This document shows, one piece after another, positions 41,101 to 47,100 of a DNA stretch of 64,000 nucleotides. A model generated the notes under the pieces. That model saw nothing but the letters and a program-made list of their open reading frames with translations. It made no database searches and was not told the origin of the DNA. Position numbers and translations under genes: made by a program. Position 1 is the first letter of the stretch. Every line of letters starts with the position of its first letter. The stretch comes from Heliocidaris erythrogramma (lineage: Eukaryota > Echinodermata > Echinoidea > Camarodonta > Echinometridae), in NCBI GenBank assembly GCA_025617745.1, contig CM046853.1, positions 37,993,065 to 38,057,064 of the forward strand, read 5' to 3'.

Positions 41101-44100
41101 AAAGGTCATAGAGGTCATTATATACATAAAAATGGTTCGTTCTTGCAATAACTTCAGTTGTTTGACAGATCAACCTCTAACTCGGCCCACGTATGCATAT
41201 ATATGTGAGGGACGATGAACTGATTAGATTTTAGGGGATAATCTTTTTTATGCCTCCGCCCACCATAGGTGGTGCCGGAGGCATTATGTTTTTCGGGTCG
41301 TCCGTCCGTACGTACATCCTCTTTTCGTTCTCGCGATAACTTCAAAACCGTTTGGCGGTTCAGTTTGTAACTGGGCCCATGTATGCATATGGGAGGGACG
41401 ATGAACTGATTAGATTTTGGGGTCTCAAGGTCAAAGGTCAAAGGTCATAGAGGTCATTATATACATAAAAATAGTTATTTCTCGCGATAACTTCAAAACC
41501 GTTTGGCGTATCAGTTTGTAACTTGGCCCATGTATGCATATGGAAGGGACGATGAACTGATTAGATTTTGGGGTCAAAGGTCAAAGGTCATAGAGGTCAT
41601 TATATACATAAAAATTGTTCGTTCTTGCAATAACTTCAGTTGTTTGACAGATCAACCTCTAACTCGGCCCCCGTATGCATATATATGTGAGAGACGATGA
41701 ACTGATTAGATTTTAGGGGATCTCAAGGTCAAAGGTCATAGAGGTCATTATATACATAAAAATGGTTCGTGATGTATGGAGTCTAGGCCTACGTAATTTA
41801 GAAATTTCAAGGGGACAGTGGTCTATTTGCTATTAAATATCTATTTCCGTGGTGTATTTGATGATTGTAAGTCATCAATGGTAATTAAGTTTTTTATTTG
41901 AAAATAAATAAATAAAATTTTCTGTCTCCTGTGCTTTTGAAGTGAAAAGATTTGTAATTTTGATGGACCAATCCTTTTTAAAGTGTACATTCTGACCGCG
42001 CGTGATTGGAGATTCATCTAGTTTTCATGATGATTTTTATATCAAAGTGACGAAAATCTGTTGTAAAATTAGTCATTTAAGAGGTCAGAATGTCATCTTT
42101 CAGATAATATAAGAAAGTCTATAGTCTTTCATATTAAAAGACATGGGCTGCAGAACTGGGGAGTAAGGGGGGGGGGCTGCAGACCCCCCCCCCCCAACTT
42201 GAAAAAGGTTTGAAAAGTCATTAATGAGTGAAATCAAATCAGCCCCCCCACCCCCTTCAAAAATGCTCCATGGCCCCTGAAATAGTCTGCTATGCTTGGT
42301 TTGGTAAGGGTTGCACAGTCCTCAACCATAACGGTTTGGAATGAATATAGACTACTGAAGCTGCTCTAAGATCTGTCAGTGAAGGGTCATGAAAGGGATC
42401 AAGATTTGTCATTTTCCTTTTAATGTGCTGGATGTCCAAATCATTCAACATGTTTCCACAGGAGACCTGTTAAAACTCAGAATTATCCATCTGGAATAAA
42501 ATTCAACACTAATGCCTATTGGCATGTCTCTACCTTTTGTTTACAGAAGTGCAATAAACCTATGCAAGCTAACAGAATTTGCGGTGTATACACCACCGGA
42601 TGTCAGGAATGTGAGCATGGCGTATAGTGTTCTGTGGTTCCCTTATTTTAGAATCTCAATTTATACTTTTTAAAGTCTGCTATCATTGAAAAAAATGGAA
42701 CTGATATAATCCCATTCAGATTAGATGAAACAAAAGAAAAAAATCAATCATGAAATAAGCATGCTTGTGGACTGCCCGTAGCACTTACATGTATGGGTTA
42801 CACCATTACCTTAAACCTTTATCACACCATATGTGTCAGTAGAACTGAGACAGCAAATGTGCCTGGAAAGGACCGGCTCTTGAAACTGGCACAATAAACC
42901 GTTTATCAGTGTTATGTTCTCTGGTTGCTGACAAAGAACTTGTGACTGCATTGAATGTAGTATCAAACTGCAAGTTCGAGTTCTTTGTCAGCAACCAGAG
43001 AACATAAAATTGGCGACGAGGATGGGGCCTACCTCTCAGCTTCCCCTAAGAAGAAGGGGGAGAGTATGCCAGCTCTAGGCATCCAGACTCTTGCATTAGT
43101 ACACGGATTGAAGGAGATATGGAACTACCTCCACCTTTCGAGTTTACCACCTGCAAAGATGTATCGGCAGGATGGCGAAAGTAGCTTCGAGTATTGCATT
43201 GACGCATCAGGGATAATTTCAGCGAAACAGAAATTTGCCCTCTTGATGTACATTGGAGGAAACGAGCTTCAAGACCTGTTTGACACCCTTACCCCAGTAG
43301 CCAGCAGCCAGGAAGGCGACGACGACTATGAGGTCACAGTTAAGGCGTTTGTGAACTACTTCAATCCTAGTCCGACACAAGCTGCCGTAGCATATAAAAA
43401 ACCCCTAGTCAACAGCCATGTCGAGGGCGATGACAACAACGACGTTGAAATTCATTACGTCAACTACCCTGAACCAGTTGTGGTGCCAGCTGATGCCGGA
43501 CTGAAATCCTTGGCCAGCAGCCAGGACGGCGTTGACGACCAGATCAACTCCCAGCTCGAGGAGGAAAACGAGAGCCTGCCTCACGGCCTCAACAAGGACT
43601 GCCAGCCAGACGCTGCGCAGGAGCCTGACATCTGCCACAACGGCGACGAACGCTCCCAGCACGACGGGGAGAACGAGGGCCTGCCTCACGGCCTCAACAA
43701 GGACTGCCAGCCAGACGCTGCGCAGGAGCCTGACATCTGCCACAACGGCGACGAACGCTCCCAGCACAACGGGGAGAACGAGGGCCTGCCTCACGGCCTC
43801 ATCAAGGACTGCCAGCTAGACGCTGCGAAGGAGTGTGACATCTGCCATGACCCTGACGAAAGCTCCCAGCACGAGGAGAATGAGGGCCTGCCTCACAGCC
43901 TCACCAAGGACTGCCAGCCAGACGCCGCCGAGCATGACGAGCCCCTTTACCACAGCCTCGAAGATTACTGCGGCCAGCCAGAAGCGGCGCGGAACGATAA
44001 CGACAAGGAGTGCCTGTATCACCATGATCACAGTCTTGACGACGAATTCCAGCTACATGTAGACTCCACATAGTGAATGACGCAGACAACGAACACCCTG

Positions 44101-47100
44101 CCATGACCACAGCGACTGAGAAGGACGATGACCCCATGTCCACAAGAGCCAGAGAGCATGACAGTGTCGACGAGGAAGACAATCGGTACCTTGTGCATGT
44201 TTATACAACGCTAGACATCATCACGATGTTCGTGAAATTCACCAAAGTGGACCTCGATCCAGCGAAGAATACGCAAGTGAGATAGTGATTATGTCTGTGT
44301 TTACCGGTATCTTTTGCTAAAATGGAGAGAAGTATTGCTTCGATTTTGTTGACGACGGACTGCCCAATGACAACGGATTTATGTGGAATGTGGAATCTAT
44401 ATATTACGCTAAGGATTTGGGGCCTTTTTTTTTGGTTCGAATAGGCGTCTCCCTTGACCCTTTCGGAATGGTTCTTAGAGTGGTGGGAGGCACTTCTTAA
44501 GGGCTGACGTGCCGTCCATATTTCATAAATTCATTTTTAAACATTGAATTTCCGGAGGGAGTAATAATTCTGCCAACCCATGAAGCTGGTTTGTAGCTTC
44601 ATGCCCAACCCATACCCTTTACCTGTGAAGGGGAGAAACCTCAATTGGTGTATGCCAAAAAACAGTGTGACGTGTGCCCTGCATATGCATAGCTCAACAT
44701 GCTGTAGTGTGTCTACTACGGCGCAAACATAGTAGTACATGTATGGCTTCAATGTATACGGCGCATCAACACACGTGTTATTCGTTCGCACAGTGCACGG
44801 GTATTTCTACATGTACTGCATGTACATTGTACTATGTACCATAGAGTTACATCATTATTTTGTAGCTTCACGGTTACATGGAGGGAGGGCATTTCTCATT
44901 GAACCCGGTACATCAGGCATCATCCACGTACAAGAAAACGGATAAAAAGGGTACCTTTTCAGCAATAAGCGCATAACCCGGGTTACGCGTTTAGGATATA
45001 AAAAAAAGCAAGCAAAAATCAAGAAAAAGGGTATCAAACTCAGAGATGATAAGAAGAAGATCCGCTGAGGGGGGCGGGGATATAGTTCGGTAATGTGTTT
45101 CAAATTAGGTCAATTTATTATTAACGGTTCCTCTCAGTTGGCTAGAGGTCTATGATGATGATGTAATCCTCAAATAGGTATAGGATGTAAAATACCAAGC
45201 AAGATATAAAATCGCCATTAAAATGGTATAAAAATCAGAGATAGACGGGTTTCCCTGTTTAGGGTATCAAAATCTGCTCCTACTGAAATATCAATCCAAA
45301 ATCTGATGTGTTTAAATTGGTCTGATAGCAGTTTATTTCATTTCAAATCTAACGGTAACATATATACGTTTATACTTGTATTTCTATCTATGTGCAAATT
45401 AGTTCGCTTAACTTATATTTTTGGTGATGGTACTTTTTTATCTAAAGAAGAAAAGGGATATTGTGTTCTCATCATTTCATCTTTTTTCAGTCTACATCTT
45501 TATCATCCTGTCCCCACACTCTGCCTTGTTTGTTTTCAATCTCTACCCTAATCTCTTTGCCTGTTTCCTATCTCACTTATCCCTGCTCCATCCAACCACA
45601 CCTACTAATCCGTTCCAGCTGTATGTTATGTAACTACCCTGTGGATACACTGTGTATTTATGTAAGTTGTTAGATCAAGGAGTTATCACAGTCTGTGATA
45701 ACTCCTTAGTTAGATGAATAAAGTTACACTTGCTACCACATCAAGGGAGTCAGGAGTTGTTCTTTGTAAGCAACAAAAGAATACAGTATGAGAACATAAA
45801 AATCAGTGATTGCATAATACTGTTTATTGTGCATTACCATGAAAGACCTTACATCATATGAGAACACGCTGATTGTGGTTCAAAGATGCAGGAAGTCTAG
45901 ATTGTTATGCACACAATTTGTGCTGTATTAGCCATGGTTGGGATTATGAAATATTTAGTCAAATTACAAGCCACATTAATCCTAATTAGTGACTGAAGCA
46001 GTGCTAGCTCTGAGTACCATAGTTTTGCAATACTGATGGAGGCCCCAGGTGTCTTCTTGTTTTAAACTACAATTTGAACATTTCAGCAATTGGAATCAGT
46101 AATAGGAATTTTGGAAAGTGTCCATCACTATTGACAAACGGAATGAGGGAATCATGTTGGTTTTAATAAAAGCAGAAAAATGAGAGAAACAGTTCAGTAA
46201 AAGTTTGGGTAAAATCTGATAAGAAATAAGAAAGTTAAGGATTTTCGAACTTGTACCCAATGAAACACAAATTGACAACCTGTGACGTATCTTGCGAGCT
46301 CCTCTCCCATTTGCTCAGTACAAAAAATTTCATAAATTGTCATTTTCTTAGGTTTTGATGAATATATTGTTTCATATAGGTTTTGTGTAAAAACACATGT
46401 GCAATGATTAAATTTTGAGGTTGCATGTATGATTAAATATTTTCTTTGAAGAAAATCAAGATTTATTATTTTTTTAGTATGGGGCAAATGGGAGAAGAGC
46501 TCACAAGATACGTTACAGAGTTGTCAATTTGTGTTTGAATGATTACTTCAAAAATTCATGGCTTTCTCATTTGTTCTCGGATTTTGCTCAAACTTCCATT
46601 GATTTATTTCTTTCATTTTTCTGCTTCTTTTTAAGTCAACTTGATATCAAGGTGGAATTTCCCTTTAACCATTTACCGGTACATGTATTATTAATACATG
46701 TATGTTGATTTATCCACAACCTAATGTTCAGTTGGTACATAAATAAGGAACTTCATCCAGAAATTTGGGGTTACTCATTTTATGCCTCCGCCCACCGTAG
46801 GTGGTGCCGGAGGCATTATGTTTTCGGGTCGTCCGTCCGTCCGTCCCCTTTTCGTTCTCGCGATAACTTCAAACCATTTTTTTGGTTCAGTTTGTAACTT
46901 GGCCCATGTATGCATATGGGAGGGACGATGAACTGATTAGATTTTGGGGTCTCAAGGTCAAAGGTCAAAGTGACAGGTAATTATGTACATAAAAATGGTT
47001 AGTTCCCGCAATAACCGAAGAACTGTTTGACAGATCAGCTTCTAACCTGGCCCATGTTTGCATATGGGAGTGACGATGAACTGATTAGATTTTGGGGTCT

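Follow-up and report, generated by a model that had tools for sequence, protein, structure and literature searches.

The stretch from 42,910 to 45,801 of the window (the 64,000 nucleotides of Heliocidaris erythrogramma DNA analysed here) is one decayed copy of a non-autonomous Ty3/gypsy LTR element. It is very probably explained as a whole by the decayed insertion of a Gag-only satellite LTR retrotransposon that was mobilised through the machinery of Gag-Pol helpers. The initial annotation had weighed a TR-GAG-like non-autonomous element against a domesticated gene. Dispersed copies, LTRs, a primer site, a polypurine tract, and 5-bp target duplications bear out the former; the dispersed copies, together with two frame breaks in the window copy, speak against a domesticated gene at this locus. 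A search for further copies in the same genome recovers a dispersed family rather than a single copy.

Architecture of the window copy

The features of the element and its flanks are as follows.

42889..42899, no strand: left arm of a host-flank palindrome, GCACAATAAAC; exact 11-nt inverted pair, each arm once on the window + strand
42905..42909, no strand: left copy of the target-site duplication ATCAG; ATCAGTG occurs at 42905 and 45802
42910..43009, + strand: remnant 5' LTR collapsed into a hairpin of ~100 nt; 34-nt arms, 94% complementary
43011..43026, + strand: primer-binding site TGGCGACGAGGATGGG, 1 nt past the 5' LTR; core seen by exact pattern in other loci
43119..43184, + strand: family Gag start (MELPPPFEF...), in another frame than the ORF 43066-44073; closes after 21 codons in the window copy
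43183..43392, + strand: the capsid N-terminal domain of Gag continued, in the frame of the ORF 43066-44073; residues 40-109 match sibling and Gag-Pol proteins
about 43549..43941, + strand: four acidic Cys/His repeat units of 105, 105, 105, and 78 nt; Tandem Repeats Finder (TRF) and alignment
43942..44073, + strand: degenerate repeat unit up to the ORF stop
44073..44282, + strand: C terminus of the family protein, read in a different frame past the second frame break; comparison with siblings L012 and L015
44395..45289, no strand: different high-copy repeat inside the element; DNA matches elsewhere in the genome
45444..45458, + strand: polypurine tract AAAGAAGAAAAGGGA; sole stretch with at least 15/16 purines between 44073 and 45800
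45459..45801, + strand: full 3' LTR, 343 bp; recovered as a genome query, and matched by the 5' LTR of L010
45677..45707, no strand: 31-nt hairpin within the 3' LTR; inverted-repeat search
45717..45722, + strand: putative poly(A) signal AATAAA within the 3' LTR
45802..45806, no strand: right copy of the ATCAG duplication; ATCAGTG repeat
45822-45832, no strand: right arm of the host-flank palindrome; pairs with the left arm

The element seems to have been inserted into the short host palindrome that now flanks it. Identity between the two copies of the duplication extends to seven bases (ATCAGTG). The flanking structure described earlier (inverted repeat, primer-site-like motif at 43011, 3' hairpin, and AATAAA) is present. 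The 5' hairpin folds as RNA with z = -11.2 and consists of an LTR end in inverted copy (42914-42975), aligning in reverse with the LTR end of sibling L009 at 94%, followed by a direct LTR end (42977-43009). The 5' LTR would have turned into this hairpin when its end was copied in inverted orientation, perhaps as minus-strand strong-stop DNA primed itself. The arms resemble each other more than they resemble the LTR end at the 3' side of the window copy, so a single round of reverse transcription alone is an insufficient explanation. Of 30 fetched loci, 21 contain an exact pattern match to the primer-site core, including six of nine family A siblings, the Gag-Pol elements L022 and L024, and L023; the primer is presumably tRNA-Ser(GCT).

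The same polypurine tract precedes the 3' LTR in L009, L010, and L013. As a genome query, the 3' LTR is recovered over its full length, bases 1-343, at seven other places among 39 scored; 26 of the 39 matches reach no further than base 220, with 11 of those 26 picking up again at 251-272. The hairpin at 45677-45707 is skipped in at least 11 other LTR copies and is seemingly present in at least one (C14). An alternative LTR start at 45624 was dropped, as no polypurine tract lies ahead of it and genome copies begin at 45459. The 3' part does not hold up as one discrete unit, since 44395-45289 is a different, high-copy repeat: this segment (query bases 1596-2490) has matches of 77-90% at 31 other places among 40 candidates scored, all separate from the Gag-tail places.

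The reported ORF is present, running stop to stop from 42961 to 44073 (370 codons) with an ATG at 43066. At its own base composition a stop-free run of this length has P about 5e-7, and the 196 non-repeat codons alone have P about 5e-5. Its described Gag-like beginning stands from residue 40 onward; residues 1 to ~39 lie outside the family Gag frame. The window copy carries two frame changes, near 43,180 and near 44,060, and the former puts the first ~39 residues from the ATG out of frame. Sequence like that at 44073-44282 runs on uninterrupted from the ORF in L012 and L015. The repeat units start at 43548, 43653, 43758, and 43860, with 100, 95, 84, and 66% identity to the first. Three properties first ascribed to the repeats are confirmed: they preserve the frame (spacing 105, 105, and 102 nt), they are GC-rich (0.63 vs 0.37 for the whole window), and they carry the H-x5-C-x10-C-H spacing, which occurs exactly three times in the tail and is seen in one shuffled unit with a frequency of 0.0004.

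Satellite families and Gag-Pol relatives

Ten loci in the genome make up the family of the window copy (family A), and a sister family (B) occupies about 31 places. In the proteins of both families, the N-terminal capsid domain of Gag (~90 aa) is joined to an acidic Cys/His repeat tail. LTR pairs are found at seven of nine fetched A loci (82-99% identity) and at 14 of 18 fetched B places (81-100%), and by inspection a clear 5-bp duplication borders the LTR ends in 11 of 19 related elements. Open frames of at least 350 codons occur in 11 of 31 B-like places. Matches to the tail were fetched at 27 of 47 places and resemble element copies; sibling L012 has fewer repeat units than the window copy. 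No pol-bearing copies with the same repeats are seen, as none of the 47 tail places lies within 30 kb of any of 120 reverse transcriptase (RT) places, both being best-scoring subsets. The ORF lists of fetched loci contain no pol in A or B elements, and a Pfam scan of nine of 39 open pieces gives nothing above the cut-off.

Gag-Pol elements of the same genome are likely the helpers of the satellite. They have in common with it the 5' LTR and leader, the primer site, and ~1.1 kb of the 3' end including the LTR (86-87%). In the best pair, the LTRs of the non-autonomous L029 and the autonomous L022 are identical at 275 of 276 positions without gaps; the LTR of L024 is farther from most B copies, e.g. 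261/275 with 15 gap columns against L029. Gag-Pol elements L022 and L024 are also similar to the satellite over the first ~91 Gag residues; they differ in having a Gag with a knuckle as well as RT, RNase H, and integrase, as tested on pieces of L024. These pieces match zf-CCHC, PNMA-like Gag, RVT_1, RNase H, and rve in Pfam, the L024 Gag reaching PNMA at 1.1e-05 and 25.4 bits (cut-off 25). We take this helper lineage to be mag.

The Gag origin proposed for the window frame is supported by its residues 40-106, which align at 44% with the frame of a Gag-Pol element in this genome. Over 91 aa, sibling L012 and L024 match at 44% (E 5e-22), and protein similarity between satellite and Gag-Pol stops near residue 91-97. 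By homology to an element whose pol has the gypsy order of RT, RNase H, and integrase, the satellite protein is probably a Ty3/gypsy (Metaviridae) Gag.

Two unlike LTR types, 50-54% identical to each other, occur with the same Gag-tail frame. The window type is present in the window copy, L010, and L034, and the helper type in L012 and most B copies. The same frame under two LTR types suggests that helpers may be switched by LTR exchange. By inspection, no helper with the window-type LTR is found among the scored LTR and RT matches, both best-scoring subsets.

The encoded protein and selection on it

The predicted satellite Gag is truncated and charge-inverted relative to the helper Gag. Instead of a full-length GAG domain, only the N-terminal ~90 residues of the capsid are retained. 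The tail carries a charge of -35 to -48 in three satellite proteins (L012, L015, and L018) vs +14 in one helper Gag (L024). The canonical knuckle (C-x2-C-x4-H-x4-C) is, as first described, lacking, with no Pfam match in L012 or L018; zf-CCHC is matched by two of 20 rows of an alignment that holds two Gag-Pol rows. Metal binding by the Cys/His repeats, initially offered as an inference, is weakened and not well supported, because the CH pair that is regular in the window units is absent from family B by inspection and only two tail cysteines are present in L012 vs 10 in the window copy.

The satellite Gag domain is assigned to the capsid on sequence homology and is best called a putative one. 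AlphaFold2 models the window Gag segment, in which the first ~39 residues lie out of frame, at a mean pLDDT of 40.6, and reaches 38.7 with the 20-row alignment. Foldseek comparison of the latter low-confidence model with the PDB returns 34 matches at an E limit of 10, the best at 4.0 and none at 0.001. Searches of Pfam, NCBIfam, and PDB sequences with the ORF, the tail, and family proteins give nothing above the cut-off; weak matches to DUF3079 (0.23), DUF4999 (0.2), and one PDB chain (0.39) were set aside. In a viral-contig search seven stretches fit a pattern and none was confirmed, and nothing matched in a phage tblastn search.

The family ORF looks to be under selection, which in the Gag part appears to be purifying. 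Between A and B the capsid part has dN/dS of 0.23-0.24 at dS of 1.2-1.3. ORF identity exceeds 3' noncoding identity in seven of seven pairs, which share members. Frame-breaking indels number 0 of 18 in ORFs vs 75 of 106 in noncoding sequence, a count biased by the comparison of intact ORFs picked for openness. Tail dN/dS is 0.56-0.61 between A and B, where the alignment is uncertain, 0.61 in pooled B, and 1.03-1.14 in two close pairs. Units 1-3 of the window copy differ by 23 nonsynonymous vs 4 synonymous codon changes, summed over three pairs, and the window Gag stretch shows a weak third-position excess against its siblings (e.g. 6, 3, and 7 against L012).

Mechanism, alternatives, and significance

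The LTR would drive transcription of the satellite RNA; Gag-Pol helper particles would package this RNA, the helper RT would copy it off a tRNA primer, and the helper integrase would insert the copy. More speculatively, the self-coded protein might use its capsid N-terminal domain to enter helper capsids, and the strongly acidic tail might contact or shield the basic nucleocapsid of the helper, so that the satellite's own RNA is favoured or the helper is damped. The protein is without the capsid C-terminal domain and without a basic nucleocapsid, and by analogy its action on helper capsids would follow a logic comparable to that of Ty1 p22. The leading idea is that the protein may co-assemble or interfere with capsids. 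The fuller proposal is tentative: an 'anti-Gag' satellite lineage whose capsid domain enters the helper shell while its strongly acidic Cys/His tail, standing in place of the basic RNA-binding half of Gag, occupies the helper nucleocapsid and steers or blocks packaging, the helper being switched by LTR exchange.

Two other accounts of the protein are each rather unlikely. It could be a self-encoded brake on the helper, a dominant-negative capsid in the manner of Ty1 p22 instead of a packaging aid. Such a role would fit a capsid domain that lacks both the C-terminal lobe and the nucleocapsid, a tail charge opposite to that of the helper, purifying selection on the Gag part, and the precedents of Ty1 p22 and yeast DRT2; however, p22 and DRT2 use the C-terminal part of Gag or capsid while the satellite keeps the N-terminal domain, and halting its own helper would bring a satellite little gain. 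Alternatively, the ORF may be a passenger, with LTRs, primer site, and packaging signals alone of importance and the acidic repeats a product of drift in a functionless protein. TRIM and LARD elements are mobile without ORFs, and tail dN/dS of about 0.6 (1.03-1.14 in the two close pairs), the 23 vs 4 changes in units 1-3, and the weak third-position excess in the window Gag stretch agree with a passenger. It is opposed by conservation of the ORF above that of adjacent noncoding sequence in all seven pairs, by the Gag dN/dS of about 0.24 between A and B, and by the long open frames (at least 350 codons) at 11 of 31 B-like places.

Accounts that dispense with a retrotransposon are highly improbable. 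A domesticated single-copy gene in an intron of an FN3-domain host gene is suggested by the position of a long open frame 5' of exon-like stretches with fn3 domains, but the dispersed copies have LTRs and target duplications, and the frame of the window copy is broken twice relative to its family. It is just as hard to credit a DNA transposon with terminal inverted repeats at 42889-42966 and 45730-45832 and a captured Gag fragment. The ends do align inverted, with a score of 54 vs a maximum of 29 in 500 shuffles, yet the LTR-end hairpin and the host palindrome account for this alignment. The 3' LTR is recovered end to end elsewhere, primer-binding site and polypurine tract are in place, and the ATCAG duplication falls inside the supposed repeat, with none seen just outside by inspection.

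The satellite LTR retrotransposon invites comparison with several known systems. TR-GAG elements of plants likewise have LTRs and a single Gag-type ORF without pol, and for one of them, AT5TE33540, a related full-length element is the putative helper, as for the satellite (PMC8704663). The satellite differs in its animal genome, its Ty3/gypsy Gag, and its ~90 N-terminal capsid residues with an acidic repeat tail, whereas TR-GAG elements have a full Gag with knuckle. Ty1 p22 and yeast DRT2 resemble the satellite in the proposed logic of a truncated Gag acting in trans; they belong to another superfamily, use the C-terminal Gag part, and are described in abstracts with no mention of such a repeat tail. 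Their restriction function has been demonstrated; that of the satellite protein is a proposed one. The helper Gag matches Pfam PNMA and so recalls PNMA and other domesticated metaviral Gag genes; PNMA are, however, host genes, the satellite consists of dispersed elements, and its acidic-tail proteins L012 and L018 have no Pfam match.

No description of this element appears among the titles and abstract beginnings listed for open-licence PMC papers, and the Gag-only LTR elements described among them are from plants. Here a satellite and its putative helper lie side by side in an animal genome with near-identical LTRs, two diverged satellite subfamilies permit selection tests, and the satellite protein keeps one capsid domain with the charge of the remainder reversed. 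Together these make it testable why a satellite retains Gag: as an aid to its own packaging or as a restraint on its helper.

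Anatomy of the window element

The insertion, a decayed Ty3/gypsy element, is bordered by ATCAG followed by TGTTATGTTCTC on the left and by GAGAACATAAAA followed by ATCAG on the right. Its features and the flanking host repeat, in forward-strand coordinates, are as follows.

42889-42899 and 45822-45832, outer inverted repeat
42910-43009, 5' LTR, a hairpin of 62 bases that match a sibling's LTR end in reverse (94%), then the direct LTR end
43011, start of the primer-binding site (PBS)
45444, start of the polypurine tract
45459-45801, LTR

The inverted repeat, primer-site-like motif, 3' hairpin and AATAAA described in the initial annotation were each found; the outer inverted repeat looks like a palindrome of the host into which the element inserted. 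The two arms of the 5' LTR hairpin resemble each other more than either resembles the 3' LTR end, a pattern that one round of reverse transcription would not produce by itself. Queried alone, the LTR has full-length matches (bases 1 to 343) at 7 other places among 39 scored, which fixes its ends. A 31-nt hairpin at 45677-45707 in the 3' LTR is skipped by at least 11 other LTR copies. By reading, a 5-bp direct repeat at the LTR ends is clear in 11 of 19 related elements from the same genome (L011, L012, L019, L020, L022, L024, L025, L029, L030, L035, L036), probable in three (L010, L015, L027), and not clear in five (L013, L017, L018, L026, L038).

The window contains a 370-codon open stretch (42961-44073) with the 105-nt frame-preserving units reported initially, in which the spacing H-x5-C-x10-C-H is exact in three. 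GC by codon position in the repeat part (0.73/0.33/0.78) is a coding-like pattern. The ORF gave nothing above the cut-off in Pfam and zero matches in the PDB. Among units 1-3, the three pairwise comparisons sum to 4 synonymous and 23 nonsynonymous codon differences; thus, no sign of constraint is seen between the window repeats. The units are more numerous here than in sibling L012. The single Gag-derived frame proposed from the ATG at 43066 did not hold, as its first ~40 residues are out of frame with the remainder in all eight family A siblings with both parts matched. Pairwise alignment with L012, on which the placement rests (L010 lacks the first stretch), puts frame-changing indels near 43,180 and near 44,060. 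From the family start codon at 43119 the frame closes after 21 codons, and the window copy is broken.

Other repeats surround the element. A 99-nt, MITE-like inverted repeat (46151-46249 and 46547-46645, 76%) lies 350 nt downstream. Inverted repeats of ~275 bp (20010-20285 and 21405-21679, 94-95%, ~1.1 kb apart) are perhaps a DNA transposon. Units of 16/26 nt and TTCGGAAATACGAACC type form arrays at 48508-48990 and 53077-53602, in inverted orientation ~4.2 kb apart with long arms 91-96% complementary, and perhaps represent an element with repeat-array termini. Exon-like open stretches at 55174-63837 (+ strand), with an fn3 domain in 5 of 10 scanned pieces, belong to a host gene downstream of the element.

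Two families of copies

The window's own assembly (1.06 Gb, 26 contigs) was searched with 42,800-45,900 as DNA query. The 40 scored candidates resolve into three distinct parts: the Gag-tail part (42977-44382; 8 other places, 81-89%), a different high-copy repeat of ~0.9 kb inside the element (44395-45289; 31 other places, 77-90%), and the LTR. The repeat is not a clean insertion, since L010 carries a different ~1-kb stretch at that position.

A Gag-segment search gave 59 rows, sorted by identity into family A (10 loci, 18 rows, including the window), B-like places (31, at 49-63%) and 10 further places (33-44%), where long frames of Gag-Pol type predominate; 9 of 9 other A loci, 18 of 31 B-like and 3 of 10 Gag-Pol-type places were fetched. 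LTR pairs flank 7 of the 9 A loci (82-99.3%; that of L009 only in pieces) and are absent from L014 and L016. Among the 18 B places, 14 have pairs (81-100%), one more, L031, has its pair displaced upstream, and L021, L032 and L033 have none around the ORF. At C21:30407041-30414724 (G000), three B-like Gag matches lie ~4 kb apart, two preceded by window-type LTR matches, possibly a tandem array by LTR recombination.

The A copies L012 and L015 encode 322 and 300 aa, beginning with MELPPP, spanning the repeats and ending in DPAKNTRVR; 11 B copies start with MDLP (346-356 aa). The L012 (A) and L018 (B) proteins are homologous (250 aa, 38%, E 6e-42). Some copies are mixed on inspection: in L034 and L037 a B-type Gag is linked to an A-type unit, and in L016 an A-type Gag precedes a B-type tail, a mosaic that suggests recombination between subfamilies. 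The 27 tail places fetched of 47 appear to be copies of A/B elements, with L039 lacking the 5' part.

Selection and the encoded protein

By the Nei-Gojobori method, dN/dS between A and B is 0.23-0.24 in the Gag domain (three pairs with L012; dS 1.2-1.3) and 0.56-0.61 in the tail, where alignment is uncertain. Pooled within B (11 copies, 55 pairs), the values are 0.43 and 0.61. In individual close pairs the ratio climbs to 1.03-1.14 for the tail, to 0.89 for the Gag part and to 1.21 for the ORF as a whole; recent copies thus seem to evolve almost neutrally, as dead insertions should. Comparison of the window Gag stretch with siblings gives a weak excess of third-position changes. ORFs are more conserved than 3' noncoding DNA in all seven pairs with both regions (97.0-99.1% versus 92.8-95.7%), although 3'-end exchange between elements could also raise noncoding divergence. 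None of the 18 ORF indels (8 pairs) is of frame-breaking length, compared with 75 of the 106 noncoding ones (7 pairs), a biased contrast because copies were picked for open frames and pairs share members.

Similarity of the family protein to the Gag of the putative helpers, L022 and L024, stops near residue 91-97. Across the five sequences compared, L024 Gag from there up to residue 285 is basic (pI 9.65, charge +14), the L012, L015 and L018 tails are acidic (pI 4.1-4.3, charges of -35 to -48), and the window tail has charge -37. By inspection of the alignment, the first motif Cys (DCQ) is common to A and B units, and the CH pair after it is particular to A. Tail Cys number 2 in L012, 4 in L015, 8 in L018 and 10 in the window; a metal site is possible, but the sequences do not support one across the lineage. 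A low-confidence predicted model, of no use for fold assignment, places four helices in residues 17-97 and leaves most of the tail unstructured.

A probable Gag-only satellite and its putative helper

The Gag-Pol frames are 1378 codons long in L022 and 1355 in L024, and pieces of L024 match zf-CCHC, PNMA, RVT_1, RT_RNaseH and rve. The L022 LTR matches those of L029 (275/276, zero gaps), L018 (273/275, 3 gap columns), L025 (274/276, 28), L027 (273/275, 29), L012 (265/275, 12) and L020 (264/274, 13). Against L024, L012 matches at 275/286 (3 gap columns), L020 at 275/285 (4), and L018, L025, L027 and L029 at 259-262 of 274-275 (15-43). In DNA, L027 and L012 share with L022 the leader and ~1.1 kb through the end of the 3' LTR (86-87%); a single 41-bp stretch of L012 is all that matches in between. 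The window-type LTR is 93-94% identical to L010 and L034 and only 50-54% to helper-type LTRs, so the Gag-tail frame is found under two LTR types. Among the best-scoring places of both searches, none of 47 tail places lies within 30 kb of 120 reverse transcriptase places (closest, 30,378 bases; two second rows of the latter omitted).

The sequences establish the anatomy, the family and the selection, and the reading they support best for the window feature is a Gag-only LTR satellite that a Gag-Pol relative mobilises. It would work in the manner of TR-GAG elements (PMC8704663; Inpactor definition, PMC6022998); the window-family element falls short of their full GAG and is therefore called a variant of the TR-GAG kind. 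The ends common to satellite and helper suggest that the RNA would be transcribed from the satellite's LTR, and that the helper would provide packaging and integration. Ty1 p22 (PMC4599808) and DRT2 (PMC10951436) are precedents for the action of a truncated Gag in trans; both use the C-terminal part of Gag. The satellite protein may co-assemble with the helper capsid, and its acidic tail may contact the helper nucleocapsid.
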